A stretch of DNA of 46,482 bases from a virus: the IMG/VR virus record IMGVR_UViG_3300010392_000130, positions 1-46,482 of that record. One strand, 5' to 3'. This document shows, piece by piece, positions 8,001 to 46,482 of the stretch (the stretch's first letter is position 1; each line of letters begins with the position of its first letter). The position numbers and the translations under genes were made by a program. The notes under the pieces were generated by a model. It saw only the letters and a list, made by a program, of their open reading frames with translations. It was not told the DNA's origin and ran no database searches.

Positions 8001-8126
8001 TTAGCTCTTTTTAATGGAGGTACTCGTTCCACCACCAGATTTTGCGACTGGAGGTTTTTGATGCGGAGGAATCTGTCCACTCTTAGGACCGGATCCTGCG
8101 TAACTACCGACGGTTGGTTTGTTCAT
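8001..8126 (-). CDS. 41-aa glycine/proline-rich peptide overlapping the terminase gene end
   Basis: ATG at 8126-8124 is preceded by AAGGAAACGA, a good ribosome site with six to seven bases of spacing, and the frame ends with TAA at 8003-8001. It overlaps the last 23 bases of the large terminase gene. The peptide is low complexity (GSGPKSGQIPPHQKPPVAK, then SGGGTSTSIKKS). Small G/P-rich peptides are common between terminase and portal genes of podoviruses; function unknown. Confidence 0.5.
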   Translation of the reverse strand: MNKPTVGSYAGSGPKSGQIPPHQKPPVAKSGGGTSTSIKKS

Positions 8127-9588
8127 TTCGTTTCCTTTTCATCTGTTCTAAGAACTGAAGTTTTTCTGCTTCAATTTCGTCAAATTTAGTAAACCATTGT
8201 TTTCCTGCTAACTGTTTACTTCTTTTATTTCGTCTCTCGAGCATGTCCCATTTACGTTCATCTGGATGTTTAAAACCTGGTAACATTCTTTTGATTCGTT
8301 TATAGGGTCGAGATTTAGTCATTAAATAGTACCTAATGCAATCAACTGTGTGGTCATTAGCTTTTTCAGGTTCTTCAGGTTTATTCTTGAAGCGTCCTCG
8401 AACTCGTACATCTTTCCAACGATACTGAGGAACTTCATGAATTATATTTTCACAATCAGCAGTAAAGAAGATACGAGGAGATCCTTTCTTTTGAGTAAAA
8501 GGATTAATAAGATCTTTATCAATTTTAAAGTTATTTAACAGCATTTGAATTCCCGATTTTACATCATTGTCAGCTGGTACAAAATGAAGATCGTAATCAG
8601 CATAAAGATCTGCAACCGAGTGCATCCCACGTTTAGGATTTTGTAGAGTCAAGTTAAAGATCGCTGGATCTGCTAACAAGAACTCAGGAGAGTCAACATC
8701 ATTAATTTCTAAGATCTTTCGCGCATGCCAATCTACAGTTTGACTTGCAGCGTAGTGTTCCTTGTAAATAATGTGGAATCCTTCAGGATGTACCGCACAC
8801 CAGATGACTGCTGTGGGATTATTGGTCCCATGATCAAGCACGATTGTTCTTGGTTGCCATGAGTCAGGTGGATCAAAGGGCTCGATGATATGTTGGTCCT
8901 TGTCCCAAGTCGTAATGATTTGTCCAGCGAATGCTGCGGGATCACCATAGATATACCTCTTTACCCAATGTTCTGGATACGAGCTGACAAGATCGTCGAC
9001 ATAGTCATCGGGTAGATAGGGATTTTCAGTTGTAGGAGCTTGGATAAAGAGATAGTTGGGATCGTTTCGGTGCTGTACGCACCACTTGTGCCAAATCCAG
9101 TCATGGCCTTCGGGGTTAGTACTACCAAATCCAACTCTTCGAGGTACGTTGGTTCGTCTAAGGCGTGATTGGAGCATAAGAAATACATTTTCAGGTACCT
9201 CCGTCATTTCATCGATGGCAAACCAACCAAGATTCAGGGACTTAATCTTATCCGGATCCTCAAGATGCCTAAAGATGATTACCGAACCATTCTTAAAGAT
9301 TAGTTTGTTTTCGGTTTTCTTGAAGTCCTCAATGACCTCGTCGGGACAGATCTGGAAGAACTCGAACATGCTTGTATCACGGAGCTCTGGATATGTGTAA
9401 CGACCCATGAGGCCGTAGTTACCTGGGAATTCGAGTGAGAGTAACAGACACTCCCAAATAAGTGCGGTGGTTTTCCCTGAACCCACTCCTCCCATATAAC
9501 ATTTATATTTTGCAGATGATTCATGGTACAACTTCTGTTTCGGAAGAGGGCGATAATGATCGCTTAATCTGAACTCTTTATTTGCCAT
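8104..9588 (-). CDS. terL: Terminase large subunit, 494 aa
   Basis: ATP-driven DNA packaging motor and headful/end-cutting nuclease. Walker A is GGVGSGKT at residues 33-40. Walker B is GWFAIDEM at about 122-129, with the catalytic Glu following the Asp. The coupling motif is GFGSTNPEG at 153-161. The C-terminal RNase H-like nuclease shows acidic residues in LDHGTNNP (D252), LLADPAIF (D307) and NDHTVD (D412/D416). All expected motifs are present and the length is normal. The ATG overlaps the TAA of the small membrane protein gene upstream. Confidence 0.95.
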   Translation of the reverse strand: MANKEFRLSDHYRPLPKQKLYHESSAKYKCYMGGVGSGKTTALIWECLLLSLEFPGNYGLMGRYTYPELRDTSMFEFFQICPDEVIEDFKKTENKLIFKNGSVIIFRHLEDPDKIKSLNLGWFAIDEMTEVPENVFLMLQSRLRRTNVPRRVGFGSTNPEGHDWIWHKWCVQHRNDPNYLFIQAPTTENPYLPDDYVDDLVSSYPEHWVKRYIYGDPAAFAGQIITTWDKDQHIIEPFDPPDSWQPRTIVLDHGTNNPTAVIWCAVHPEGFHIIYKEHYAASQTVDWHARKILEINDVDSPEFLLADPAIFNLTLQNPKRGMHSVADLYADYDLHFVPADNDVKSGIQMLLNNFKIDKDLINPFTQKKGSPRIFFTADCENIIHEVPQYRWKDVRVRGRFKNKPEEPEKANDHTVDCIRYYLMTKSRPYKRIKRMLPGFKHPDERKWDMLERRNKRSKQLAGKQWFTKFDEIEAEKLQFLEQMKRKRNEQTNRR

Positions 9589-23082: not shown

Positions 23083-24585
23083 ATGAACCTGCTACTCAAC
23101 ACGCTTGAGAAGTATCTCGAGCTAGAGCAAACTGGTGAGGGTGAGTACATATGTGCTTGCCCTTTCCATGATGATAACAAACCATCGTGCTCTGTCAATA
23201 CTAAAAAGAGAATATACTTTTGCCATGCATGTAGTGCTAAAGGTAGCATTCTTAAATTCCTGTCTAAAGTTACATCATACGAAGAACATATAATAAAGAA
23301 CCAGTTAAATGAATTAGCCGATTTAAAAAATGGTCTTCCTGATTTTAATACTCAAGCTTGTATTAAAGCTCTTAATAATAACAAAACCATGCTTAACTAC
23401 CTCGTTAAAGAACGAGGCTGGTCCCTAGAGATAATTGCAGATATGAAAATCGGTTGGGATACTCGAAGGTCTCGAGTTACAATACCGATCTATAATATCT
23501 TTGGAGATCTTTTAAATGTCAGATGCTACAAACCTAAGTCAGGACCAGACGATTATAAAGTACTCAATCTCAGGGGGTTCGGTTCAGGTCGACTGTATGG
23601 AGTCGAGTCTTTCAGAGAAGGGAGTACTATTTACGTCTGTGAAGGAGAGCCAGATCGACTTGCAGCAATATCAATTGGCCTTTCCGCCTGTAGCTCTACA
23701 TCCGGAGCTGGTCACTTTAGCTCTAATTGGGCCTCGTACTTCAAAGGAAGACGGGTGGTCTTGGTGTATGACGGTGACGAAGCAGGAAGGTCTGGTGCTC
23801 AAAAAGCTGCTCGAGTTATCTCACAAGCATCACAGTCTTGTAAAATCCTTAAGCTCAAGGAAGGTCAAGACCTCACTGATTATTTACATGACGGTGGAAC
23901 GAGAGAATCTCTTGAAGCCTTGGTCGAGAAAACTGAAAAGGTGGTGGTCTCGGAAGAAGGCGCAGAACGCGATGATGCAATTTATGAGGTCACCCTCTCG
24001 GAAAGCTCGGAACAAGAGTACTTCCACAAAAGAGTAAAGATGAAGGTGATGATTTCAGGTAAAACATTATCGCCTTATCTTGTACCGAAAAAAATTAAGG
24101 TTACGTGTTCTTTACCAGGTTTAGGCATGTGCAAAGGATGTAACCTTGCTTTTGACAATGGTGAAAAGGAATTACAATTCGGTTCTAATACAGAAGAAAC
24201 GTTACAATTAGTTGAAACGTCAGTTGACTCGCACCATAGAATCTATAAAGATAAATGTGGGATCAGCGCAAGATGTAAACTATTTGATGCTGAGATTATA
24301 GAAGCACAAAATGTTGAAGAAGCTAAGGTAATTCCTAATCTTGATTTCAGCACCGACGAATCCGAATATGTAATGAGACAAATATTCTATGTAGGACATG
24401 GCTTAAGGCCGAATGCTTCATATCAGATCGAAGGTCTCACTTTACCTCATCCAAAAACGCAACAAGTTACGTATCTAGTGGATAAAGCAGAACCACTAGA
24501 AGACAGCGTTAACTCGTTCATTTTTACTGAAGAGCTATTAAAAGCGATGAAAGTATTTTGTGTCCAAGATACAAAAGAAACTTGA
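23083..24585 (+). CDS. DNA primase with CHC2 zinc finger and Toprim domain, plus C-terminal MCM-N-like region, 500 aa
   Basis: Makes RNA primers at the fork. The CHC2-type zinc ribbon is C26-x2-H29 ... C47-x2-C50 (CPFHDD ... FCHAC). Toprim motifs are CEGEPD (Glu188) and YDGDEAG (Asp230/Asp232). The C-terminal 200 residues are not the DnaB-type helicase seen in T7-like primases. They form a beta-rich region with a second metal site (C350-x2-C353 ... C392 and C398) resembling the N-terminal OB/zinc domain of MCM helicases. The gene overlaps the next one by 26 bases in another frame, so the MCM-N-like part and its AAA+ motor lie in two coupled genes. Confidence 0.85.
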   Translation: MNLLLNTLEKYLELEQTGEGEYICACPFHDDNKPSCSVNTKKRIYFCHACSAKGSILKFLSKVTSYEEHIIKNQLNELADLKNGLPDFNTQACIKALNNNKTMLNYLVKERGWSLEIIADMKIGWDTRRSRVTIPIYNIFGDLLNVRCYKPKSGPDDYKVLNLRGFGSGRLYGVESFREGSTIYVCEGEPDRLAAISIGLSACSSTSGAGHFSSNWASYFKGRRVVLVYDGDEAGRSGAQKAARVISQASQSCKILKLKEGQDLTDYLHDGGTRESLEALVEKTEKVVVSEEGAERDDAIYEVTLSESSEQEYFHKRVKMKVMISGKTLSPYLVPKKIKVTCSLPGLGMCKGCNLAFDNGEKELQFGSNTEETLQLVETSVDSHHRIYKDKCGISARCKLFDAEIIEAQNVEEAKVIPNLDFSTDESEYVMRQIFYVGHGLRPNASYQIEGLTLPHPKTQQVTYLVDKAEPLEDSVNSFIFTEELLKAMKVFCVQDTKET

Positions 24586-25864
24586 TGACATATATGACGA
24601 CTTAGAGCATAACGTTACTCGTATATATGAGCGTCAAGAACTAATGCTCATGTACGACTTAGCTTACCACTCTATACTTCAATTTGAATTCATGGGTCAA
24701 ATGTTGACACGTGGGTGGGTTGAAGTATTGATTGTAGGAGACACACGTTGTGGAAAGACCAAAACCGCTGAACGACTCCTTCAGCATTACCGCGCTGGAG
24801 AAATGGGTACAGGGGAGAACACATCAATCGCTGGACTCATTGGAGGAATGCAGCAAATATCTAAACAATGGTCTATTATTTGGGGTAAATTCCCCCGAAA
24901 TGATAGGAAACTTATCATCATCGACGAGGCTTCAAACATACGGCTTGAGCATATCCCTGACTTCGCAACCATTAGATCAGAGGGAGTGGCCAGGATCACT
25001 AAAATTCAGTCGGAACAAACTTACGCTAGAGCAAGAGCGATCTGGGTCTCTAATCCTCGCCCATTGGCATCGAATGAATCAGGATTCGCAATTAGAGATT
25101 ATGATTACGGTGTACATACAGTTACCGGACTCATTGGTCGACCAGCAGATGTTGCAAGATTCGATGCAGCTACTATTGTCAGTAACGGAGAAGTCAGTCC
25201 TGAACGGATTTTCCAAAGCAATAGAGGAAAGAAACCACCACATAAATATACATCCGAACTATCGCATGCACTGGTTCTCTGGGCTTGGAGCCGCAGACCT
25301 GATCAAGTCATTATACCTAGAGAGACAGAACAAGAAATTTTTAACCAATCTAAGCGATTAGCAAAGGACTTTCATGAATCCATCCCACTTATCAAGATTG
25401 AAGAACTTCCGGAAAAGCTTGCGAGACTTTCTGCTTCCTTGGCGGCCCGTCTATTTAGCAGCAATAATGATACTGATTTGCTGGTACTCCCTGATCATTG
25501 TGCCTATATTGCTGATTTCCTTGACCGGACATACAGTAAAAACAGTATGGGATACCGAGCATACTCAGAAAAACTCTTCAAGTCAGAGACCATAGCAGAC
25601 GTGGATCAGGTTCTTAAGTTGATCCAACCTTATGGCAATGATTTTATTCAAGGTATGCTATCATACAGTATCATACGACAGAATATTATTGAAGACCTTA
25701 CAGGATTGACTCGAGACCAAGTCCGAGCATTCATCGGGACCCTAGTGAGAAAGAGATGCCTTAGACCAGATCAAGTCTGGTACAAGAAAACAAGTCCTTT
25801 CATTAAAATGTTAAAAGATATTGAATCCGGCCGAATTAAGGTCGACGAGGAGGTACCATTTTGA
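24560..25864 (+). CDS. MCM-like AAA+ replicative helicase, 434 aa, GTG start
   Basis: Walker A GDTRCGKT (residues 60-67), Walker B LIIIDEAS (118-125), sensor 1 IWVSNPRP (161-168), and an MCM-type arginine-finger signature ADVARFD (196-202), followed by a winged-helix-like C-terminus. MCM-superfamily helicases are found in some phages and mobile elements. Here it replaces the usual DnaB/gp4-type ring. It starts with GTG at 24560 inside the primase gene. It probably functions as a hexamer with the primase product. Confidence 0.8.
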   Translation: MSKIQKKLDDIYDDLEHNVTRIYERQELMLMYDLAYHSILQFEFMGQMLTRGWVEVLIVGDTRCGKTKTAERLLQHYRAGEMGTGENTSIAGLIGGMQQISKQWSIIWGKFPRNDRKLIIIDEASNIRLEHIPDFATIRSEGVARITKIQSEQTYARARAIWVSNPRPLASNESGFAIRDYDYGVHTVTGLIGRPADVARFDAATIVSNGEVSPERIFQSNRGKKPPHKYTSELSHALVLWAWSRRPDQVIIPRETEQEIFNQSKRLAKDFHESIPLIKIEELPEKLARLSASLAARLFSSNNDTDLLVLPDHCAYIADFLDRTYSKNSMGYRAYSEKLFKSETIADVDQVLKLIQPYGNDFIQGMLSYSIIRQNIIEDLTGLTRDQVRAFIGTLVRKRCLRPDQVWYKKTSPFIKMLKDIESGRIKVDEEVPF

Positions 25865-31516: not shown

Positions 31517-31936
31517 TTATCTCCTCTCACTAATAACTAGCACAGCTTCGTCATCGGTATCTTCATTCATGAAAGCCATGAAGTCACTGTGAGTGTTACG
31601 ACTAGCATGAACAGCTAGTCTGTTATCTAGAACCATAAGCTTATTGCCAAGAGCAATACAACCTCTTAACTGATTAGCTTTGTTGGCAGCATGGATCTCG
31701 ATTGCTGTACGACCAGGGACGTCAAGTACCTTGTAGTTTGGATACGGTGGAGTAGCCTTTCCAAACGTATCTTTAACCATCTTGTATGTGCCTCTAGGGA
31801 TACACGATACATTAACTTGATTATCCTTCCAGGGTCGTTCGATAGTCAGGCACTTGAAGGACGAACCTACTATCCGTAGTAGACCTATGCACTCGTCATC
31901 TGAAAAGTGAATCCGTTCTAGAGTTACTACTTTCAT
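31517..31936 (-). CDS. DUF5675 protein, candidate lysis enzyme, 139 aa
   Basis: The pattern LTIERPWKDNQVNVSCIPRG, then YKVLDVPGRTAIEIHAANKA, then LRGCIALG is that of the DUF5675 family. The IHxxN ... GCI arrangement resembles the catalytic His/Cys region of L,D-transpeptidase-like (YkuD) folds. It lies directly upstream of the holin gene. No lysozyme, amidase, endopeptidase or transglycosylase was recognised elsewhere in the genome, so this is the best candidate for the cell-wall enzyme. Activity is unproven. Confidence 0.7.
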   Translation of the reverse strand: MKVVTLERIHFSDDECIGLLRIVGSSFKCLTIERPWKDNQVNVSCIPRGTYKMVKDTFGKATPPYPNYKVLDVPGRTAIEIHAANKANQLRGCIALGNKLMVLDNRLAVHASRNTHSDFMAFMNEDTDDEAVLVISERR

Positions 31937-34900
31937 TTCGACCTCTTTGGAAGTTCAGGCAAATCAGCAGAAGGCACAATCCCTTGCTTTTGCTTTGATT
32001 TAACAAGATCTCTTAACATATCGCGACGTTCAAAGGTCGAGCGTTCGAAGTTCGCTTTGATATTATGTGGGATAAACTTAGCACCGAACAGTCGACTCAC
32101 AGCATCGTACGGACGCCTTTCTTCACGGAAACTTGCAACATCAGCAAGACCAAACGAAGCAAGCTGATCAACGTTTCTTAAGAATGGACTTGCTTGTTCA
32201 AGCATATACTTCATCTTAGCTGGAAGAGCCCATACCCATTGTTCCGTTTCAGGTTCGTAAATTTGCTTTGCGCCAAGTACGTCAGCAATCTTTATAGCTA
32301 GTCGGTTATCATTCTTTTGGATTCCTGATAGCCATTCGATCGGTGCCATCTCGCCTTCGTACTTCTCGATTGGATGACCTGCAAAGATATTGGTATTAGT
32401 TATGTACTCAAAAAGAACTTTCCATGGTGCAACAGAACTAACCCAGTCTCTAGGGTCGAAAGCTTTTTGAAGATCCTGGAACGGAAGGTTAGGATTCCAG
32501 TATACTGGCGAACCTTTACTTGATTTGAGTGGAGTTTTAACAGCATAGATTTCAGGAAAATATTTCGGAGCCCAACGATCATCATGTTCAGGTGAAGCTC
32601 TCTCGAGAGCACTTTTAAATCTCTCGATATTTCCAAACTTTCCAGGCTGCTTCATCATTTGTTCGAATTGCAAAGCAATGTTCTTCCTCATCCACGTATA
32701 GAAGGGGAAGATTCGCTTCATGACACCTTTTTCAAATTGAGTAATATCGTTGTAGTCAAACAAGAACTTTTTAGTTCTCATTGCTGCATACGTCTCATTA
32801 CCAGTACGTACTAGATCATTATAGAAGCCGACTAGACGTGCTTCATTCTCAATAGTACCACCGATCTTTCGACCTACACGGAAGCCAATGTTCTCTTGGC
32901 TAGCAGGATTCATTGATCGTCCTAGGACATTCTTTGCATTGACTCGAGCACCGCCAACTTGAGATCGTACTCCAGCAATTGACTTCTGAACTCCTTCGAT
33001 ATCAGAACCAGTCCAACCAGTGCCATAGACGTTATGTCTTTTAGCCATGTCCATGAATTCGTCAAGGCTAATCTTAGCTTTTTGAGGACCGATCTCTATG
33101 AAACCAGATTTGCCGCCAAGAGCTTTAACGACATTTTTATGGGCTTCAAAACTAATAGCTCCAGCACCATCTTTAAGATAGAGCTGGTATAAGTTAGACA
33201 TGAAGTTTCGGCCATGGAAACCTAAGTTAACGTAAGTAGCATGTCCTTTCCAAAGATTAAGAAGTGGATCATAGAACTTAGTGAAGAACTCTTTAGTAGC
33301 TTCATCACTAAAGATTGCTTTTGCATACTGTGACAGATACTTCCCAACCTCTTCAGGGATCTGGACCCCATCAAGAAGTTCGTGCTTCATCGTCATGTAC
33401 CCAGCATCAGTAACTGGAACTGTAGCTTTCTTTACAACGCCATTAATGATCTGAGTTTCTTCACGGAACTGGGAAATAGGTTTTCCCCATTTCTTAGCAA
33501 TAGTATCAATCATATCAAGTTTGCCATTAGCTTCAAATACATCAATGGCATTCTTAGTTAAAACATTAGCAATGTCATCATCCCAGAGTTTGATACCAAA
33601 CTTCTTAGCTACTTGATCAGCTAACAATTTAGCTTCATCATGCTGAATTCCTGGGATCTGAATCTTACCTTCACCGGCCATCTTAAGACGTTCAACTACA
33701 TCTAGTGGACTGTCAAGACGTCTGAGTTCAGGAATATCGTAGAGCTTTAAATGTTTTTCTCCACGTTCGACACGTAGATTTTTAAGAGCATTTCTAACTC
33801 TCTCAGGACTTACTAAGCTTTTTTGTTTAAATGCAGCATTAATAAGACCTTTCCATTCCTTCGCAAAATCATAACCTTTCATTACTCGTTCATACTGTTT
33901 TGGACTAAGATTAGTAAGTCGAGGGTGCTGTGAAGTAAGGATCTCTACTTGTTCGTCCCAAGTTCGAGATTCTTGTTGAAGTGTCTTCTTGCTTAGAGGT
34001 TTAAAAGCTTCGTCATAGTTATAGATTACCCCGTAGTGATGTGTACTATTAGATACAAGAGCAGTAGCTCTTCTATGGGTATTAATATTAAAGTTTGTAA
34101 CTGCTTCTCGTTCAACAGATGACAGGTGACTAAGGTCACTTTGAAAATAGCCGCCCTGTTTGTATGACTTAACTACACCTGCATCTTTTAATTCTTGAAA
34201 CAGTTTAAGATATGCTTTTTCAACATTTTCAGCAGATGTATTTCTTAATCTAAGAACATTTCCAAAGTTTTCGACCTGCTTAGTAAGAAATCCACCTGCA
34301 CCAGCAGCACTGTTAATGTTTTCGCTGTGAGCCATAATATAATTTTGCTCTAAAAGAGCTGGATCGTACAGAGCAGCTTCTTCTCTTGGTTTCTTAAGAA
34401 GAGCTAATTGTCTTTCTTCAGACGTTATCGGAAGACGAAGAGAACCAGGTGTTCTTGTAGTTACATTTTGACTTGAAGGAACCCTTGCCGCTATATCATC
34501 AAAGCGACCAGCGTCCATAGCAACAGCTACGCCAGAGTACTGATGAATCATTAAGTTAGAGCCATGAGTATCACCCATAATGATACCATGCTTGGAAACA
34601 TTGTTTATAGTTTTCCAGACACTACTCATAACTTTAGAAACATCTGTTACTAGTTCAGATTCATTTGCATAGTTTCTGGCTCTAGCTATGCGACTGCCAT
34701 AAATTTCGGTTAGAGTTTTACCTGGAATAAACTTCTTAACAAGAACAGCTTGCGGAAGATCTTTGGCATGAATTGGAGTATCTTTAACTGATTTATACCA
34801 TTGAGATTTAGACATAGCTTGTTCGCCAGCTTTTGTGGCATCTCTTTGGTGAAGCCAGTAACCACCTTCAATAGCAGTATACTTTGATTCTCCAGTTAAC

Positions 34901-36897
34901 AATATAGGAGGACTTTGATTAGGAACTCCGCTAACACCTGGTCGGCCGATAGCATCATCGAAATGATAGTACCGATCAAACACTCGACCTTCAGATCCAA
35001 AGAACTCACTAGCACGACTGTTAGGAGCAACGTCCGAAAGTCGTCGCCAAACAACCTGACCTCCAGCACTGTAGGGTGCATTGCCCATTTTACGCATCAT
35101 GTGAAATTCGTTCATGATGGTATTAGATGTCCACTTTGAAATACCTACAGCCTTTTCTCCAAACCTTCGGCCTTTAATATTTTGTATTCCTCGAGACATA
35201 CTAGGCGAAGTGGGAAGTTTAATTACCCAATCACCAAACTTGAAGTTAACAAATCGTTTCTCAAATTTAGCATGCAAAACTGATTGAAAGATTGGCTTCA
35301 TGTAGTCAATCTCAGCCAGACGTTTAGGCAAAACAACTTCGCCATATGCTCCTGAACCTAAATGTGTTTGGCCCTTTCCGCCACCAGGACGCATGAAAGC
35401 TAAATCATCGCCATGACCATACTTGAAAGCTTCAGCCATCGTTTCGAAGTATAGATCAACTAAGTCGTTAGCATGCTCTTCGGTGAGTTTCGTTCCTTGT
35501 TCGTAGTAATCCATGTTAATGTCAGCCCAAACTTCATCTTGGGTCTGACGGAGTTTAACAAAGTGCTTACCACCGATTTTAGTCGGATCATCGAGGAGTT
35601 CTTCGATAATCTCCCGTTCTTCAGGAGTTGCCATCTTAGCGAACTCACGACCTTTTTCTTTAAGTCTATGAAACTCCTGCATGTTACCAGCACGAAGAGC
35701 ATCATGCATTTCCTTGAGCTCAGGCCACTTCTTCATCGTAGAGTAAAACGGTACAAATGCTTTACCGAACCACATCTTAACTGGTTTACCTAACTGTCCG
35801 ATTGCTGTTCCAGCTAGCGACTCGCTCATCTTATTTAAGATAGATTGAGTTGCATCAATGTCGTCGATTCTTTGAACGATGCCGCCAGGCGTAAGACCTG
35901 TACCTTTAAGTCCAAGTTTTTGACCGGCACTCTCGGCTAAGTCCCCAATACTCTTTCCGCCGATCCGTGGTACCCAATGTTGATATCTAAGACCGTGCGG
36001 CAAGAGCCTTGTTCCGATCTTAGTTTTGTTAGCAATTTCAGTTACTAGAGCATGAATAGCTGCATCTTCTCCGACTTTATCAATAGCAACGTTTAGAGCT
36101 TTCTTACCCCAGTTGCCAAGCACCTTACGAAGATCATCAGCAGTCATATCAATCGTAGTTCTTGATCCTAGTTTCTTGAATCCTTGTCCAGTAAGGGCAG
36201 CTTTGAGACCAGTTTGAGCAGTGCTAATACCTTTAAAACCTTTAATAGCTGACTGAACTCCAGCTCTGGCTGCACCGCTAGCTCCTAGCGTAAACCATGT
36301 CAAGGGATCGAGAAGAATATCACCACCTAGAGTGGTCATGAACTTCAATCCAGGACTATCTTGAAGCATATTGTACTTGTCGAGAATATCTCCTACGGAG
36401 TGTTCTTCCTTAAGAATCAGACCTCTGTAGAAATTTTTGAGGGCATCTTCTCCACCATAACCATCGAGAATTCCTTTGAGTCCTCCGACTACAGCGAATT
36501 GACCACGTTGGAGTTCCACGAGCATTTCAAGTGGATTGTACCATGCTCGCTCAGGTGCTTCAACTGGAGGAACATCTTGATCGAATTCACTAAGCATTCC
36601 TTCAAGTCTAAGATTTTCTTGAAGAGCTCTAGACACTGCCATACGGTGTCGGCCAAAACCAGGAGTTTCAACAGGTGGGTTTGCAGCATCATACTCTTTA
36701 TAAAGACGATCTATATCCGGAATAAACCGACCGTACTCATCAGTTTCTCCATGAACTTCAGTTGGAGCTTGTGGGCGTCCTTCGATCCGATCAAAGAAAG
36801 ATCCTGCCCGACCGGTTACCGTACGAGGACGATTAGGATTTACTCGATCATCTTGTTTTTCTTCAATTGTATCAAGAAAAGATTTTGATTGTGGCAT
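31933..36897 (-). CDS. Large internal virion (ejection) protein with embedded kinase-like domain, 1654 aa
   Basis: By size and order (adaptor, tail hub, small ejection proteins, this giant protein, lysis) it corresponds to the largest inner-core protein of podoviruses, injected ahead of DNA. Residues 510-800 show a protein-kinase-fold series: glycine loop HLGSGAYGEVVL (512-523), VIKLP lysine (K560), alphaC Glu in NEFHMM (E597), hinge LVKKFIPGKTL (719-729), catalytic loop HGIIMGDTHGSNLMI (H770, D776, N781) and metal Asp in AMDAGRFD (D795). The C-terminal third includes FPFYTWMRKN near residue 1395, seen in other giant phage virion proteins. No transglycosylase motif was found. The N-terminus is disordered-like and basic/acidic. 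Confidence 0.8.
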   Translation of the reverse strand: MPQSKSFLDTIEEKQDDRVNPNRPRTVTGRAGSFFDRIEGRPQAPTEVHGETDEYGRFIPDIDRLYKEYDAANPPVETPGFGRHRMAVSRALQENLRLEGMLSEFDQDVPPVEAPERAWYNPLEMLVELQRGQFAVVGGLKGILDGYGGEDALKNFYRGLILKEEHSVGDILDKYNMLQDSPGLKFMTTLGGDILLDPLTWFTLGASGAARAGVQSAIKGFKGISTAQTGLKAALTGQGFKKLGSRTTIDMTADDLRKVLGNWGKKALNVAIDKVGEDAAIHALVTEIANKTKIGTRLLPHGLRYQHWVPRIGGKSIGDLAESAGQKLGLKGTGLTPGGIVQRIDDIDATQSILNKMSESLAGTAIGQLGKPVKMWFGKAFVPFYSTMKKWPELKEMHDALRAGNMQEFHRLKEKGREFAKMATPEEREIIEELLDDPTKIGGKHFVKLRQTQDEVWADINMDYYEQGTKLTEEHANDLVDLYFETMAEAFKYGHGDDLAFMRPGGGKGQTHLGSGAYGEVVLPKRLAEIDYMKPIFQSVLHAKFEKRFVNFKFGDWVIKLPTSPSMSRGIQNIKGRRFGEKAVGISKWTSNTIMNEFHMMRKMGNAPYSAGGQVVWRRLSDVAPNSRASEFFGSEGRVFDRYYHFDDAIGRPGVSGVPNQSPPILLTGESKYTAIEGGYWLHQRDATKAGEQAMSKSQWYKSVKDTPIHAKDLPQAVLVKKFIPGKTLTEIYGSRIARARNYANESELVTDVSKVMSSVWKTINNVSKHGIIMGDTHGSNLMIHQYSGVAVAMDAGRFDDIAARVPSSQNVTTRTPGSLRLPITSEERQLALLKKPREEAALYDPALLEQNYIMAHSENINSAAGAGGFLTKQVENFGNVLRLRNTSAENVEKAYLKLFQELKDAGVVKSYKQGGYFQSDLSHLSSVEREAVTNFNINTHRRATALVSNSTHHYGVIYNYDEAFKPLSKKTLQQESRTWDEQVEILTSQHPRLTNLSPKQYERVMKGYDFAKEWKGLINAAFKQKSLVSPERVRNALKNLRVERGEKHLKLYDIPELRRLDSPLDVVERLKMAGEGKIQIPGIQHDEAKLLADQVAKKFGIKLWDDDIANVLTKNAIDVFEANGKLDMIDTIAKKWGKPISQFREETQIINGVVKKATVPVTDAGYMTMKHELLDGVQIPEEVGKYLSQYAKAIFSDEATKEFFTKFYDPLLNLWKGHATYVNLGFHGRNFMSNLYQLYLKDGAGAISFEAHKNVVKALGGKSGFIEIGPQKAKISLDEFMDMAKRHNVYGTGWTGSDIEGVQKSIAGVRSQVGGARVNAKNVLGRSMNPASQENIGFRVGRKIGGTIENEARLVGFYNDLVRTGNETYAAMRTKKFLFDYNDITQFEKGVMKRIFPFYTWMRKNIALQFEQMMKQPGKFGNIERFKSALERASPEHDDRWAPKYFPEIYAVKTPLKSSKGSPVYWNPNLPFQDLQKAFDPRDWVSSVAPWKVLFEYITNTNIFAGHPIEKYEGEMAPIEWLSGIQKNDNRLAIKIADVLGAKQIYEPETEQWVWALPAKMKYMLEQASPFLRNVDQLASFGLADVASFREERRPYDAVSRLFGAKFIPHNIKANFERSTFERRDMLRDLVKSKQKQGIVPSADLPELPKRSK

Positions 36898-38120
36898 TAG
36901 TTTCCACCACGTAGCATATCGTACTTGTCACCTGTATCAGGTAAGCCCATTTCAATTGCTTGTTCCTTAGTGATCCAATTACGATCTAACAGTCGTCTAA
37001 TCTCATCTAGACGCTTAGCGGCTTGTTCTTCAGTTTCAGCTCCTCTGCGAGCATCAAGGTTTTCAAGATACCGAGCAAAAGTTTTAGGTCTGTAGATCTT
37101 TAATGCGACAACATAAACATCTGGTAATGTTCCAGTATTAAATTGTTCAGTTAATGTATTAATTTTTGCTTTGGCTTTTTCTGGATCTGCTGCGCTTTCA
37201 GGATCAGTATCCATATCGTTTAAAGCACCTCTCATTTGATCATCAGTATAATCACCTTGCATAACTTGTTTACGACGACTTGAAAGTTTTCTTCCTATTG
37301 GAGTTTCTTCATTCGAAGATTGTCCTTTAACGATATCGATAATAGTGTCAACATCTAAAAGTTCTCGAGGTTGAGCTGGAGATCCAGGAGGTAAATCTTG
37401 TAACGAATCATTATACAAGCGTGCTTCGAAATTGTACGCTTCTACTACAGGAGCAGCTCGTTTCCTAACTTTTTCGTAAAGAACATCTTCGTACGCTAGA
37501 AGATCGTCATAAGTATAATCTCCGCCCCAAGGAGCTCTGCCCTCTTTCATAAGAAGTTCATCAACATCTGCAACAATATCGGAAGTACGAGTAAACACTC
37601 CGCCAGGACTTGACGGAATATCTTTCTCAGCATTAGCTTTTCTTGCTGCTGCGGTTGCTTGAGCTCTAGTCGTTCGACCAGCTTCTCGATCTCCGTAGAT
37701 CTCTTCCATAGCTCGGTTATGACGTTCAGTTTCGATATCAGCAGCACCTTCAGTTCCTGGGCGATTAGGAGCTACAAGGTCAAGAAATGCATCTCGGCCT
37801 TCTCTTTGTTGTTTTGCTTGTTCACCTTCGCGAGCAAGTTCATGAGTCTTCTGTTCTTCTTCAAAACGATCACGATCCATTTGGTTCTTGATTTCCATTT
37901 GGAGATTCTTTTGACGCTCTATTCTATTACGCTCTTGCCCACGAGCATCTTCAGTCTCAGCTTTGTATCGTTCGAGAGCTAGGCCCTGCTGTTGGAGTTC
38001 TTCCATACGAGCTTGCTTAGCCATCTCTTGCTTTTCAGTTCGTAGTCGGTACCGTGCTTGCTGATTAAACCAGTTGGCATATGCAGCACCTTGGACCGCT
38101 CCTCGCATATCAAAACCCAT
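36897..38120 (-). CDS. Coiled-coil internal virion protein, 407 aa
   Basis: Residues 20-130 are a long highly charged helix (RYRLRTEKQEMAKQARMEEL, ... RIERQKNLQMEIKNQMDRDR) likely to form a coiled coil. The rest is helix-rich and acidic. A shared base (36897) couples it to the giant ejection protein gene. Proteins of this kind between a small membrane-active ejection protein and a giant one form the inner core or transenvelope tube in podoviruses. Direct homology to T7 gp15 is not evident. Confidence 0.65.
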   Translation of the reverse strand: MGFDMRGAVQGAAYANWFNQQARYRLRTEKQEMAKQARMEELQQQGLALERYKAETEDARGQERNRIERQKNLQMEIKNQMDRDRFEEEQKTHELAREGEQAKQQREGRDAFLDLVAPNRPGTEGAADIETERHNRAMEEIYGDREAGRTTRAQATAAARKANAEKDIPSSPGGVFTRTSDIVADVDELLMKEGRAPWGGDYTYDDLLAYEDVLYEKVRKRAAPVVEAYNFEARLYNDSLQDLPPGSPAQPRELLDVDTIIDIVKGQSSNEETPIGRKLSSRRKQVMQGDYTDDQMRGALNDMDTDPESAADPEKAKAKINTLTEQFNTGTLPDVYVVALKIYRPKTFARYLENLDARRGAETEEQAAKRLDEIRRLLDRNWITKEQAIEMGLPDTGDKYDMLRGGN

Positions 38121-38122
38121 GA

Positions 38123-38932
38123 TTAACCTCCGCTCGTAGGATAAGCATCGGTTGTAGGACTCTGATCATAAGGATTTGGAGGAGGACTTGTATGTTCCAT
38201 ACTCCAAATATTATAGTCACTGATAGTCTCACCAGGCTGTACACCTGTTGCGGGACCATTATTACCATCTTGACGACCAGCCATCCAGTTTTCGTACACC
38301 CCGCTAAGACTTTGACCGATCATTTGATTAGTCATATTCTGGTCATTAATAGAGTTCCAATAATTTTGAGTTGCTATTTGAGCATACATTGGATTCTTGT
38401 TAGCAAGAGCCATTAAGATGTTTTCACCTCGAGCTCGCTGCTGATCTTTCATTTGAGAATCAAGTGCCTCAATTTGATTGTAAGCAGTATTGAGACCCTC
38501 AGAGAACTGATTCGCTGCATAGTAATCTTGTCTTGCTTTAGTACCACCAGCTTGATCTAGGCCAGATCTTGCGAAATTAGTTTCTCGTTGGCGTTCGAGC
38601 ATTTGGTGACCACCAGAGAACACATCACGCGATGTATTCCTCATTGCTCTCTTGCCTTCGGCTCCAATACCGTATGGATTATCGATAAGACGTTGGCCTT
38701 GGCCGTAAGCTCTTTCAGCAGCCATGCCATAGATATGAGCATAAGGATCTTGATAACCCTTACGTCGGCCCATCATACCACCAAGTAACGAACCGCCAAC
38801 TGAAATTAAAGCTCCTGCCACAGCTGGTGCTATTGCTAGAGTCAAATCATTAGAACTTGGAATGAATAGTTGAAGGACATTCCCAACAAGGAGTGCAGAG
38901 AAGGCCCAATCAATAAGATTAAGTTTCTTCAT
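38123..38932 (-). CDS. Small internal virion protein with hydrophobic N-terminus, 269 aa
   Basis: Two hydrophobic segments at the N-terminus (WAFSALLVGNVLQLFI; LAIAPAVAGALISVGGSLLGGMMG), followed by helix-rich, Gln/Asn-rich sequence (YAANQFSEGLNTAYNQIEAL) and a disordered proline tail. This layout resembles T7 gp14 and P22-type ejection proteins, which insert into the outer or inner membrane when DNA enters. Overlaps the next tail gene by four bases and lies two bases before the coiled-coil protein gene. Confidence 0.65.
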   Translation of the reverse strand: MKKLNLIDWAFSALLVGNVLQLFIPSSNDLTLAIAPAVAGALISVGGSLLGGMMGRRKGYQDPYAHIYGMAAERAYGQGQRLIDNPYGIGAEGKRAMRNTSRDVFSGGHQMLERQRETNFARSGLDQAGGTKARQDYYAANQFSEGLNTAYNQIEALDSQMKDQQRARGENILMALANKNPMYAQIATQNYWNSINDQNMTNQMIGQSLSGVYENWMAGRQDGNNGPATGVQPGETISDYNIWSMEHTSPPPNPYDQSPTTDAYPTSGG

Positions 38933-39987: not shown

Positions 39988-40317
39988 TTAAATCACCAAA
40001 TAGATATCTGCTTCGCAAGGAGCTGAAGCTCGTAAATAAATGTTTCCTGCAGTCCATGGAGTATCTCCCTTCCAAATACGAACATCAGCACTTGGAAATG
40101 CTGGAATGGCCGATATCGGTACTGCACCAGCTTTATGCGGAATATCTAAATCAAGAGTTGCATGAGCTGAAGTGAAAGTTGCTGTTACCTTTAATCTGAA
40201 AAATCTTTCAGTTTTCTGATCCCATCGACTTCGATCATCTTCATCTCTAGTTACTCGACGATCAGTAGGTTTATGAGTCGCTAACCGGCGTTCAGTCCAT
40301 TCTTCAGGGATAGCCAT
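39988..40317 (-). CDS. Small tail protein, 109 aa
   Basis: Basic, arginine-rich first third (TERRLATHKPTDRRVTRDED) and beta-rich remainder (FFRLKVTATFTSAHATLDLD, ... EADIYLVI). Starts at the last base of the tail hub gene's stop codon. Likely a small structural or joining protein; family not recognised. Confidence 0.55.
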   Translation of the reverse strand: MAIPEEWTERRLATHKPTDRRVTRDEDDRSRWDQKTERFFRLKVTATFTSAHATLDLDIPHKAGAVPISAIPAFPSADVRIWKGDTPWTAGNIYLRASAPCEADIYLVI

Positions 40318-42242
40318 TATCTTCTATCTCCTGCAGGTGGCATTGGAGTATACCGAACTCTTGTTCTTAAGATTTCCCATGGCTCTGCACCATTTTCAGT
40401 ACTGTATCCGATAGAAATGTACCGAAATTGCAGTTTCTTTAATCCGACTTTGATCGTAGTAAAAGTATCTCCAGCAAATCTTGCACTATCCCAAAGTGTA
40501 CCGATATCGTCCCAAGTATCGTCGCCGATAGATAGACTTATATTTTCGGTAAATGATGGTCCAAGATCGCCATCGATGTAAATAGAAACAATAAGTGGAA
40601 AATCTCCTTGAGGGATAAGATCAATTTCAAGGAATCTTCCTAACTTTAAATGTCTCCATTCAAGATTATTCCAAGAAGTAATATACTCACCTTTAAAGTC
40701 TCCTCCAAGATAAGTATCTCCATCTTCAACGATGAATGTAAATCCACCATCAGAAGCATCTGCTCTGGATTCGCCTCCTACGACTTCTTCGATAGCAGTA
40801 GTACTATTAGTTCTTGTAGTTAACGATCCGCAGTAAAATGGTTCTCGAATATGCCAACTATTTGCCCAAGCATCAAAAATAAGTAAAGCATTATTTTCAG
40901 ATGCTCCATTAACAGGACAAGATAGCATGTATTTTTTAGTACTATACGAGTATTCAGCATGACTTTTATGAGCAAAGTTATGGTTAAACTGATAATCAGG
41001 ATCTTTACCTGTAAAGATTGGCTCCAGTTCTCTAGCGATAGGATATGCATCTTGTTCATCATACATGTGAATACCATGCTGAGACAAGAAAAAGAGAACA
41101 TCTCCACCAGTTGGTAAATCAACGTTCTGAATTGTATTCTGTGCTATGCATCCAATACCATCTGTTACTTGCTTACGAGTAAACAGTCCTGGTGATCCTA
41201 TCCACGAGTGCATGGACTTTCTTTTAAACACTGTAAGATGATTTAACCGACCTAATCCTGTAATGGCTTGACCATCACCTGGCGAAATTGGTTCGTAGTT
41301 AAACGCTCCAAAAGCTTCTGCTGTTAGAGGTCTTGAGTAAATAAGATTAAAGTCATCTTTAACAAAACCGTAAAGACTGCCGTTATATTCAGTGAATCCT
41401 GTCATTCCATCTGGAGGTACTTCATTTTCTTCTTGTAGACGTTCTCCTAACGCCTCATCTGCAACGTTATCTGTCCAAATAGTTGTTGTATTATCAGCAA
41501 GTTCTTTTAAAAAATAGTAAACTGAATTACCAGCTCCGTTTTGAGTACGATAGATACGGCGACGACCGCCATTAGTATCATTAATATTTTGCTTATTATC
41601 ACTATTAACAGCAATTAAAGTAAGATCGATTTGCTTAGCTGCTACATTTATTTCAGTTGAAGCAGGACTAGCATTGGATTCAGAACCAGTTTCGGAGTTG
41701 TAGAAAGTGTACTTATATGACCAAACACCAGTGAGAGCTCCGACACCGCCATCAGCAACACCGCAAGCTACTGTAGGAGCTTTAACACCAAGTTCCCAAC
41801 CATTAGCTGATGTAACTGTTTTATAAATGTAAATTGGAGCATTTACACCATCAGCAAATATACAAAGATTTGCATAAATGTAAAAATATGGGACAACGCT
41901 AGATGCTACAGTAGGATTTGTTGGAGTTATATCAGTGGCAACTCCAGTTGAATAGTTAATCTTGTAAAGTTTACCATTGTCACAATAAACTATAAAGGAT
42001 CTTGTACTATCATTTTGATTGTACTCAATCATACCTGTAACACGAGGATTAGAGGTAAGTTGAGTTCCATTGATCTTTGACGGTCCTTCGGCTTTACGAA
42101 TAGAACCAAGAATACCAACGTCGATGAAATTAGCTACCCGAGCAAATTGAGGAGGTACACGTGTTTGAGAGTCCTTGAGGTCAAGGCCTACTCCACCTGG
42201 AAACTCATAAACTTTCTCAGGTAATACCTTCCGCGTAGCCAT
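40317..42242 (-). CDS. Tail hub / stabilisation protein, 641 aa
   Basis: The N-terminus (PGGVGLDLKDSQTRVPPQFA ... ANFIDVGILGSIRKAEG) and the following beta-propeller-like repeats (FIVYCDNGKLYKINYSTGVA, YIYANLCIFADGVNAPIYIY) are typical of P22 gp10-type tail hub/stabilisation proteins. WSYKYTFYNSETGSESNASP is also characteristic of this family. It closes the portal channel together with the gp4-like adaptor encoded upstream. Its length is appropriate for the family. Confidence 0.8.
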   Translation of the reverse strand: MATRKVLPEKVYEFPGGVGLDLKDSQTRVPPQFARVANFIDVGILGSIRKAEGPSKINGTQLTSNPRVTGMIEYNQNDSTRSFIVYCDNGKLYKINYSTGVATDITPTNPTVASSVVPYFYIYANLCIFADGVNAPIYIYKTVTSANGWELGVKAPTVACGVADGGVGALTGVWSYKYTFYNSETGSESNASPASTEINVAAKQIDLTLIAVNSDNKQNINDTNGGRRRIYRTQNGAGNSVYYFLKELADNTTTIWTDNVADEALGERLQEENEVPPDGMTGFTEYNGSLYGFVKDDFNLIYSRPLTAEAFGAFNYEPISPGDGQAITGLGRLNHLTVFKRKSMHSWIGSPGLFTRKQVTDGIGCIAQNTIQNVDLPTGGDVLFFLSQHGIHMYDEQDAYPIARELEPIFTGKDPDYQFNHNFAHKSHAEYSYSTKKYMLSCPVNGASENNALLIFDAWANSWHIREPFYCGSLTTRTNSTTAIEEVVGGESRADASDGGFTFIVEDGDTYLGGDFKGEYITSWNNLEWRHLKLGRFLEIDLIPQGDFPLIVSIYIDGDLGPSFTENISLSIGDDTWDDIGTLWDSARFAGDTFTTIKVGLKKLQFRYISIGYSTENGAEPWEILRTRVRYTPMPPAGDRR

Positions 42243-43270: not shown

Positions 43271-46200
43271 CTATCGTAATCCTAAGCGGACCATAGAAAA
43301 CGAATCAAATTGTAAAGTTGTTTCCCATTTTGGATCTGGATGATCTTGCGGACCTATATAATCCCCTAAACCCCAGACAAGAACATCAGTTCGACCAGGA
43401 ATAACAGTAAAACTGTATTCAAACCATGGAGGTACGGGATCAAGCGGTATGTTTGTTGCTAGAAATGGAGTTAACGTTAACCGACCTTCAGTAAGAGTAA
43501 GATAATCAAGTCTTACTTCTTCGATTTGTGCATCATCGTCAACGTCATGTAATGATGTTGGATCTGTATATGGGAATAATCCTACACGAAATTGAACAAG
43601 ATCAAGTGCCCATGTTGAAGGATCTCCTGAATACTGAGAAGCTACAGTACAACGTACTCGAAAAGAGACACGGTGATGGTCATTCTCAGTTCCGACAGCA
43701 AGATTAAACCTCTGACCAAATCGACCGTTAGCTACTCCTGGAGTACGATCCCATTCAGCATCTTGTATCCATAAACCATGATATGCATCGAGTACTGTTT
43801 CGCGATCAGCTCGTGCGGATCTTTCCCAGTTACCAGGATCTTCAGGAAGTCCTAACTCAAAGCTTGGATCAGCAAGCAAGTTGATTTGATTACTAGCATC
43901 TTGATACGTATTACTTGGAGGAATATAAGCAATATCTTCTGGATTTGACCAGATTCGTTTATAGTAAACTACAGCAATTTCTTCTAAAAGCCAAGGTGGT
44001 TTTTTACGGTAGAAGGTTAAGTCCACCCAAGATCTTGGAATAGACGTTTTAACTTCAAGATGAGCCCAACCATGACCTCGAGAGCTCGAAACAAAATCTT
44101 GTACAGGATCACCGAACGCATCAAGTCCGTAAAAGAATCTTCCTAGAAGTTGACTTGCTGCTCCAGTACTTGATTTAATTTCATGGACATTTAACTTTTT
44201 AAAGAAATATCTTGGTCGAGGATAACTTAAAGTCGTATCACCAACATTATATTCAGGATCTTGAACCCATTTTCTTTCCCATACGACTTGTCTATGATCA
44301 TCTCCAGTTAAGAAAATTATTTCATTGAACCGAGATGACTCATCGACCCACTTTAAAAAATTATTTCTTTCAGCTTTACTATATAAACCTTGTGAATCTC
44401 GAGCAGAGTTACCAACATTACCTGCAACTTCGTAATTGTCGGCCATTGTTCCGCCACAAGTAACAATTAAAATATCTGCTTGATCTTGATTATCAAGAAT
44501 AGTTCGCTTTAACCATTTAACTTGTTCATCACCCCATGATTTATTATTATAGAACTGATACGGTTCGTCGAAGTGCGAAGGATCTCCCCAATATATTGAT
44601 GACCCTTCAGATCCTGGATTTGCTTCTTTATTCCATCGGCTATCAGTACCGATTATAAGAGCATTACCAATGACTTTATAGAACTGGATTCCTCCTCCGC
44701 CATCAGTATCTGGATCAGGTCCTGGAGTATTAATAAACCAAGCAGTTTTACGGGTGTTCTTAAAAGAAACAAATGGCTCGCCGGGATCCATACCGTATGA
44801 GTTATTACCCATAAAATCCCAGTCATCCCAGATTAAGTCACATGGAATATACCTTAATAGATTCCGCATATGAGGCATATCATTTATGACAGCGGGCCAA
44901 ACTGTAAGGTCACCCAAACCTGTTAACGTATCACCTAGCATTAAACCATAAACAGGTTGAGTTGGATTTTCATTTCGCTTATTGAGAGCATGCTGATAAT
45001 TAATATCTTCTTCTTCATTAGAACCGATATGTGGATGAAGATCATTAAGAATATAGATATCAAAGTCTTCTTCTCTAGAAGATGGCATTGTTACAAAATC
45101 AAAAGGACCATGCTCAACAGTACCGTCATTAATTTTATAAGCATACCGAGTATTAGGATCTAATCCAGTAAGCTTATAAGTAATTTGATTGTCTCTACTT
45201 CCTAATGAACCTGAAGTAGTTTTTGTTGTACCTGGAAAGCCGACGTCGTATGGAGTGTACTCAATATTGAAACTCTTTCCAGTTGCATCCATCTGGCCCC
45301 AGATTTTAATTGATGTTTGAGTAACATCTCCTAAAACCGGACCAGTTATCATTTCAGGATCTGAACCACCTTCGATAAGGCCCTTAAAGAGATCTCCAAT
45401 AAAGGAGATCGCACCAGCAAAGGTCTTTAAGGTCTTTTTAGTAACACCTCCAATAAAGGAGACTGCTCCAGCTAGAGGTTTTCGAGTTTGCTTAATTACA
45501 TCACCTGAAAAAGTTATTGCTCCGGAAAAAGATCTGAACGCTGTTAATACTCTAGCATAAGCACCACTAAACGTCATAGCACCTGCTAAAGTCTTTAAGG
45601 TCTTTTTAGTTACGCTTCCAGAAAATGTAATTGCTCCTGCAAGAACTTTGACCACTAACTTAATCTTTGTTACATCACCAACAAAGGTTATCGCTCCTGC
45701 TAGTGGTTTAAGAGTTTTCTTAACTACAGAACCTGAAAAGGTTATTGCTCCTGCAAAAGCTCTTACGAATGTTCCGACTTTCGAAACTATTCCTACAAAC
45801 GTAATTGCTCCAGCTAAAGACTTAAGAGTATTTTTAGTTACGGAACCTGTAAATGTAATTGCTCCTGCAAAAGCTCGTACAAATGTTTTTGAAAGAGCAA
45901 GAGCACCGGCAAATGTAATAGCACCCGCTAAAGGTTTAAGAGTTTCTTTAGCAACAGTACCAATGAACGTAATTGCTCCAGCAAGAGCTCTTACAAATGT
46001 AGCGGCTTTAGCGAATCCGCCTGCAAATGTTATTGAACCAGCAAAATCTTTATCAGTTTCCTTTGCAATAGCTCCTGTAAAAGTTATTGCTCCAGCATGT
46101 GATTCGAAGTATGTTGTGCCACCAGCTTCGTCAACTGTGATTGTTGGTGTTTCTGTATAATTGTCAAGTGTACCAGCAGCGACTACGACGCGAAGTAGGA

Positions 46201-46482
46201 TTTCATCTGCATCAGTTACATCACCTGATACAATAGTTAAGCAATACTCGGCCTCGGTGGATTCCGACAGAATCGATGTATTGCCGGTGGACGTTCCGGG
46301 ATCTTCAACGCCATCGCTCGCAACGAACGACCCGTCACCAATCACCTGGGTTGTTGCATCACTGTTCGTGTACTGACTGGAGTTTTCGATCTGGATAACG
46401 CTTGATGCAAGTCCTACAGGTGTCCAGCCGCCGCCTTCATGGTTGTACTCCAGGGAAAACTGATTGTTCTTCGAATCACCGC
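43271..46482 (-). CDS. Giant tail protein: N-terminal module, 20-aa repeats, PhoD-like phosphoesterase (3-prime part; starts at 369 on the circle)
   Basis: Joined across the ends the protein has about 1125 residues. After the N-terminal module come 13 near-identical 20-residue repeats (consensus LAGAITFxGxVxKxTLKx, alternating with FAGAITFxGxVxKxxTFVRA). An FN3-like strand region follows (GPVLGDVTQTSIKIWGQMDA), then a metallophosphoesterase of PhoD type: YILNDLHPHIGS, GLMLGDTLTG, LIWDDWDFMGNN, and FLTGDDHRQVVWER. PhoD proteins normally have WDDHD; here the His is Trp. A C-terminal carbohydrate-binding-like domain (from about 890) follows (LLADPSFELGLPEDPGNWER). It probably binds and trims phosphate-containing surface polymers or lipids. 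Confidence 0.8.
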   Translation of the reverse strand, partial: GDSKNNQFSLEYNHEGGGWTPVGLASSVIQIENSSQYTNSDATTQVIGDGSFVASDGVEDPGTSTGNTSILSESTEAEYCLTIVSGDVTDADEILLRVVVAAGTLDNYTETPTITVDEAGGTTYFESHAGAITFTGAIAKETDKDFAGSITFAGGFAKAATFVRALAGAITFIGTVAKETLKPLAGAITFAGALALSKTFVRAFAGAITFTGSVTKNTLKSLAGAITFVGIVSKVGTFVRAFAGAITFSGSVVKKTLKPLAGAITFVGDVTKIKLVVKVLAGAITFSGSVTKKTLKTLAGAMTFSGAYARVLTAFRSFSGAITFSGDVIKQTRKPLAGAVSFIGGVTKKTLKTFAGAISFIGDLFKGLIEGGSDPEMITGPVLGDVTQTSIKIWGQMDATGKSFNIEYTPYDVGFPGTTKTTSGSLGSRDNQITYKLTGLDPNTRYAYKINDGTVEHGPFDFVTMPSSREEDFDIYILNDLHPHIGSNEEEDINYQHALNKRNENPTQPVYGLMLGDTLTGLGDLTVWPAVINDMPHMRNLLRYIPCDLIWDDWDFMGNNSYGMDPGEPFVSFKNTRKTAWFINTPGPDPDTDGGGGIQFYKVIGNALIIGTDSRWNKEANPGSEGSSIYWGDPSHFDEPYQFYNNKSWGDEQVKWLKRTILDNQDQADILIVTCGGTMADNYEVAGNVGNSARDSQGLYSKAERNNFLKWVDESSRFNEIIFLTGDDHRQVVWERKWVQDPEYNVGDTTLSYPRPRYFFKKLNVHEIKSSTGAASQLLGRFFYGLDAFGDPVQDFVSSSRGHGWAHLEVKTSIPRSWVDLTFYRKKPPWLLEEIAVVYYKRIWSNPEDIAYIPPSNTYQDASNQINLLADPSFELGLPEDPGNWERSARADRETVLDAYHGLWIQDAEWDRTPGVANGRFGQRFNLAVGTENDHHRVSFRVRCTVASQYSGDPSTWALDLVQFRVGLFPYTDPTSLHDVDDDAQIEEVRLDYLTLTEGRLTLTPFLATNIPLDPVPPWFEYSFTVIPGRTDVLVWGLGDYIGPQDHPDPKWETTLQFDSFSMVRLGLR
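45385..46100 (-). repeat. 60-bp tandem coding repeats (AGAITF repeats)
   Basis: Thirteen units of about 60 bp encode the 20-residue repeats of the tail protein. They show two alternating types (TLKxLAG and TFVRAFAG), suggesting that a 40-residue pair duplicated. Codons vary between units (GCAGGAGCAATTACATTT-like forms), so the array is not brand new, but length changes by recombination would be expected. Confidence 0.85.
46280..46482. repeat. Right copy of the terminal overlap
   Basis: Matches 1-203 except T at 46384 for C at 105. On the minus strand the difference lies in the tail gene and is C-A versus G-T context; both versions keep the frame open. Confidence 0.95.

Follow-up and report, generated by a model that had tools for sequence, protein, structure and literature searches.

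The window, i.e. the whole stretch of DNA that was analysed, is a complete virus record of 46,482 bases. According to the ORF annotation its gene content is podovirus-like, with a major head protein (3091-4323), a portal (5590-7710), a terminase (8104-9588), and an internal-virion-like protein (40317-42242), as well as a helicase, a primase, a thymidylate synthase, and a DNA polymerase. The primase (23083-24585) and the helicase (24560-25864), both on the plus strand, correspond to successive stretches of a single PHROG protein, phrog_18685; their ORFs overlap and differ in frame. The split, with its short overlap, is kept in a sister phage, L005; therefore, it is a natural gene split.

The tail/ejection gene block ends with an ORF on the minus strand (31933..36897) that encodes 1654 residues and is grouped with portal, tail, and internal-virion genes. 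Its product is a putative ejection (internal virion) protein as judged from the ORF, the gene order, and a full-length homologue in L005 with 35% identity. The gene directly upstream encodes 407 residues (36897..38120, minus strand); it has no family match and is gp20/gp15-like in size and position only. It is preceded by a gene for 269 residues (38123..38932, minus strand), which is gp7/gp14-like, again in size and position only, and has a homologue in L005. The three consecutive genes thus resemble, by these two features only, the gp7/gp20/gp16 or gp14/gp15/gp16 sets. In the 1654-residue protein no transmembrane segment stands out (the Kyte-Doolittle hydropathy, averaged over 19 residues, peaks at 0.94), and nothing in Pfam matches it above the gathering score; weak matches to His_Phos_1, SLH, and DUF2624 were regarded as noise. 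Immediately after this gene, on the same strand, lies a DUF5675 gene (31517-31936; 1.1e-26). In distant relatives its place is taken by peptidoglycan endopeptidase or carboxypeptidase genes, which suggests that it encodes a cell-wall enzyme.

Searches of IMG/VR with single proteins (the whole protein, the kinase domain described below, and the DNA polymerase) returned no relatives. When four sequences were aligned over their C-terminal part and this alignment (A1) was used, 284 relatives were found; the analysis continued with the best 80. They share a C-terminal platform, 'FHGRN...PFYTWMRKN' (residues 1180-1510; 32368..33360, minus strand), which is found in the 284 IMG/VR relatives and in three phage records, and which reads 'FHxRN...PFYTWxRKN' across the approximately 79 relatives other than L005 among the best 80. 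An N-terminal segment, 'GDILLDPLTWFTLG' (residues 156-244; 36166..36432, minus strand), is common to MW202795, MW590223, L006, and L018, and an N-terminal 'DPxTY' segment is kept in an alignment of 27 of these ~79 relatives. The middles of these proteins are variable, with ORFs of up to 2520 residues. Beyond the platform, in their C-terminal part, two relatives (L014 and L025) carry a staphylococcal-nuclease (SNase) domain (5e-23); another, L023, has an SLT transglycosylase domain (1.8e-7) there, its residues 1948-2248 comprising SLT plus a Phage_L5_gp82-like segment. The platform family thus seems to carry enzymes of various kinds. A lytic transglycosylase within a large ejection protein is the arrangement of T7 gp16 (PMC8954989). 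Since a relative contains a lytic transglycosylase and the three genes form a set by size and position, the 1654-residue protein was read as a likely ejection protein, to which the kinase was added later in this lineage. The first-pass annotation had described it as an injected internal virion protein, a description that the gene order and the relatives with lytic-transglycosylase and nuclease domains support.

The kinase-fold domain lies in the variable middle, at approximately residues 503-805 (34483..35391, minus strand), as delimited by its motifs, their conservation, and a match to the LanKC profile. It had been placed at residues 512-800, which correspond exactly to 34498-35364, and all motifs were indeed found at the residues that had been named; the role of one residue is corrected below. 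From the N-terminus, and all on the minus strand, there are a glycine loop, GSGAYGEV (residues 514-521; 35335..35358), which is GEGARGTV in L005; a beta-3 VIK with Lys560 (residues 558-560; 35218..35226), which is VVK in L005; and the alpha-C Glu597 (35107..35109, in NEF from 596), which is kept in L005 and in register with the alpha-C Glu of LanKC. The spacing relative to LanKC indicates an N-lobe insertion of approximately 94 residues between alpha-C and the hinge (residues ~612-705; 34783..35064), E597 being 125 residues from the hinge compared to about 32 in L116, a LanKC sequence. The latter (NZ_CP084386.1, residues 1-842) is encoded on a plasmid and bears the annotation 'lipopolysaccharide core heptose(II) kinase RfaY'; by its alignment with LanKC sequences it is probably a misnamed LanKC-type lanthionine synthetase.

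The hinge, LVKKFIPG (residues 719-726, with KKFIPG from 721; 34720..34743), is LVKKFVKG in L005 and aligned to the LanKC hinge. It is followed by the catalytic loop GIIMGDTHGSNLM (residues 771-783; 34549..34587), with D776 and N781, which is GVIMGDAHTQNFM in L005 and in register with LanKC, ABC1, and gp0.7. The Mg-binding Asp795 (34513..34515), in MDAGRF from 794, occupies the DFG position and is kept in L005; its distance from D776 is 19 residues, against 18 in ThurKC, where the catalytic and Mg-binding Asp are numbered D364 and D382 (PMC10604976). Overall, the Gly-rich loop, beta-3 Lys, alpha-C Glu, catalytic Asp and Asn, and Mg-binding Asp are present in the order of kinases. The correction concerns H770, the first residue of HGIIMGDTHGSN (residues 770-781), which had been taken as the catalytic-loop histidine. 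This assignment proved wrong: H770 precedes the loop and is Thr in L005. Because the register is IIMGD = IIHRD (KHG-IIMGD = xxG-IIHRD), the position of the HRD-His is occupied by M774.

The sister phage L005 (IMGVR_UViG_3300033151_000248) is a syntenic genome whose protein, of 1617 residues, has the same architecture and is the sole full-length homologue among the best 80 of the 284 relatives. Identity between the two drops from ~40-50%, the level across most of the N-terminus, to 15-31% in the kinase region, and reaches as much as 70% in the C-terminal platform. Within the kinase domain 73 of 288 columns are identical (~25%), and yet G514, G516, G519, V521, K560, E597, M774, D776, H778, N781, and D795 are all kept, as is K722 of the hinge; at that level of identity, eleven given key positions would all agree by chance with a probability of 1.5e-7. 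It had been proposed that the kinase assignment would fail if K560, D776, N781, and D795 varied freely in homologues; in the one homologue compared, L005, all four are conserved. As a regular expression, the full ordered motif set matches the real protein, but not one of its 20,000 shuffled versions.

Among the best 80 of the 284 platform relatives this expression matches only L005, and the kinase domain was found in none of the approximately 79 others. Likewise, a profile of LanKC kinases run against the same 80 and all ORFs of the window detects only the window protein (1.1e-8) and that of L005 (7e-5). Kinase-specific alignments (A2 and A3) and a DNA pattern of the catalytic loop recovered only the L005 contig from IMG/VR. 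In GTDB genomes, alignment A2 found no relatives, and the DNA pattern found merely LAGLIDADG/intein-like and unrelated proteins.

Independent profiles point to the same fold. The NCBIfam LanKC model matches the window domain with E=2.5e-5 (3.8e-6 for its C-terminal half) and, separately, the L005 domain with E=1.6e-3, over the same model columns (about 301-375). When a profile of the two phage domains was compared by hhalign with ten plasmid-borne sequences (LanKC, LanL, and kinases), the match to LanKC kinases had a probability of 95% and a score of 65.5, while one reversed and ten shuffled queries scored at most 21.4. For calibration, ABC1 reached 96.9% against LanKC, and T7 gp0.7, a real kinase family, just 20.8%. 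The profiles of ABC1 and gp0.7 are also in register with the window domain, albeit weakly (14.2% and 10.9%). In the N-lobe alone, the E597 helix aligns to the LanKC alpha-C Glu with a score of 24.3, as compared to 14.6 for the best of 30 shuffles. Among PDB sequences the best matches are LanKC structures (8SAO, 8SAP, and 8SAM; E=0.13), with the region from the hinge to the catalytic loop in register. Pfam ABC1 (0.0017) and two PHROG kinases (0.0018 and 0.034) all match on the catalytic loop.

AlphaFold, run twice with two sequences as input, produced models of low confidence (pLDDT 32 and 40), in which the order of secondary structure is broadly compatible with a kinase; the models are too uncertain to serve as evidence of the fold, and Foldseek found no meaningful match for them. 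No similarity to the LanKC C-lobe was found in residues 797-990 (score 10.4; shuffle mean 11.2), and in this comparison none of the C-lobe helices alpha-F to alpha-I is recognisable after the Mg loop. From the motifs and profiles, which support the earlier proposal of a kinase-fold domain well, residues ~503-805 very probably adopt a kinase fold, and the domain is likely to be catalytically active.

The closest counterparts of the domain are the kinase domains of class III lanthionine synthetases (LanKC, NF038151) and atypical kinases of the ABC1/UbiB type. LanKC is its best profile match, and the alpha-C Glu, the hinge, the alpha-D/E region, the MGD-x-x-x-x-N catalytic loop, and the Mg-binding Asp are in register. 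However, the window protein is a phage structural protein with a large N-lobe insertion and lacks a lyase domain, a cyclase domain, and a recognisable C-lobe. A lanthionine synthetase was rejected, as only ~72 of 833 model positions are matched, all in the kinase domain. The protein kinase gp0.7 of T7 is also phage-borne and has a D-x-H-x-x-N-x-M loop in register, but its profile similarity is weak, and it is a separate early gene, expressed after entry, and does not belong to a virion protein.

Phage and plasmid polyvalent proteins with kinase domains (Kinase-PolyVal, PF18762), predicted to be packaged in virions, were described in 2017 (Iyer et al., PMC5512222). Like the domain studied here, Kinase-PolyVal is kinase-like and sits within a large phage protein of several domains for which delivery with the DNA is predicted, and its sequence similarity stops directly behind the Mg-binding Asp, with no C-lobe; the PF18762 members compared, which were taken from Bacteroidetes genomes, end just after an ID(T/S)xF(Y/F) motif. 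However, the PF18762 HMM has no match to the window domain at E<=10, and hhalign against its members gave 25.5, the level of controls (best shuffled control, 27.4). Kinase-PolyVal is defined by a Glu N-terminal to strand 2, a Gln in the last strand of the N-subdomain, and a His-Asp insert (PMC5512222). In the window the Glu before strand 2 is E520, which is Thr in L005; the strand Gln is replaced by Lys (KKF), and there is no His and no His-Asp insert. Therefore, the domain may work like Kinase-PolyVal, but is not a member of it. The first-pass annotation knew of no kinase in such a protein. For podoviral ejection proteins, none with a kinase domain was found in the open-access literature, including a review of ejection proteins (PMC8954989); the statement is partly wrong, because polyvalent phage proteins, with different kinases, were predicted to be packaged in virions (PMC5512222). 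The activities that this review describes for podoviral ejection proteins are peptidoglycan hydrolysis, DNA binding, and tunnel formation (PMC8954989).

The best reading of these comparisons is that a podoviral ejection protein has independently acquired a new effector kinase, which is probably active. A proposed mechanism can be described as follows. With its conserved N- and C-terminal platform and variable middle, the protein would be packaged in the capsid and, as is likely, leave it with the DNA. It resembles gp16 of T7 and P22 in being the large last gene of the ejection block and in having platform relatives with lytic-transglycosylase domains; the protein itself has no detectable match to a sequence family. 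The kinase in the middle, where the G-loop, the K560-E597 pair, the hinge, D776/N781, and D795 make up a complete set for ATP binding and phosphotransfer, may come to lie on the cytoplasmic side after ejection, by analogy with the modelled residues 411-1118 of T7 gp16. There it could bind cytoplasmic ATP and, as infection begins and before transcription, phosphorylate Ser/Thr residues of host or phage proteins in its vicinity. T4 Alt offers a model of how it may work, as an enzyme that is injected with the DNA and modifies host proteins (PMC5512222); Alt is, however, a head-packaged ADP-ribosyltransferase with another chemistry and fold. A gp16-like ejection protein with a kinase that acts at the start of infection is, taken as a whole, a reasonably probable explanation. 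That its substrates are host proteins is slightly favoured, and early phosphorylation of these before transcription is plausible. If true, this would be an enzyme that acts before the expression of any phage gene. It also suggests that the middle of the ejection protein is a site into which effectors are swapped, and the domain offers a case in which a kinase core lacking a C-lobe can be tested. More tentatively, one may think of a lineage of virion-delivered kinases, taken up from a LanKC/ABC1-like source into the variable middle of the ejection protein and distinct from Kinase-PolyVal and T7 gp0.7, which acts on the host at DNA entry, lacks the C-lobe, and has Met for the HRD-His.

Alternatively, the fold may serve another job, as a pseudokinase or ATP-dependent switch, in AMPylation, or in the phosphorylation of small molecules, and help assembly or ejection rather than modify the host. 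The Met in place of the HRD-His, the lack of a detectable C-lobe, the large N-lobe insertion, and the presence of atypical ABC1-type kinases among the closest matches are in line with this idea, and kinase-fold proteins with other chemistries, such as SelO and UbiB, are known. It seems rather unlikely, since all residues for ATP, Mg, and phosphotransfer are kept in both phages, and class III LanKC kinases, which phosphorylate Ser/Thr of peptides (PMC10604976), have an MGD catalytic loop as well (GVAMGDLQPANIM).

An active kinase could also act on virion or phage proteins, through self-phosphorylation or regulation of the ejectosome or capsid, as might be expected from its position in a probable structural polypeptide and from a sequence in which no host target is visible; however, it is absent from the approximately 79 relatives of the platform among the best 80 of 284 and therefore assembly and ejection do not generally require it, which makes this reading improbable. 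It is similarly improbable that the protein is not ejected, but is a structural or non-virion protein whose kinase works only late in infection. The three-gene ejection block, deduced from size and order only, would leave room for this; the gene nevertheless lies in the structural block, and SLT and SNase are fused to the platform in relatives, as expected of ejection proteins (PMC8954989). Chance resemblance, e.g. through a LAGLIDADG-like GVIMGDGH or in what is simply a helical tunnel protein, was rejected as highly improbable: the DNA pattern for G-x-I-M-G-D-x-H-x-x-N also matches LAGLIDADG/intein-like proteins in archaea, but kinase profiles match both homologues independently, alpha-C and the hinge are in register, and neither the shuffles nor the eleven kept residues fit with chance.

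Another protein near the structural genes, of 1024 residues (43271-46345, minus strand), has weak matches to the N-terminal domain of purple acid phosphatase (3.4e-5), to PhoD phosphatase (0.0027), and to a phage phosphodiesterase family; it is possibly a metallophosphatase within a tail-spike-like protein.
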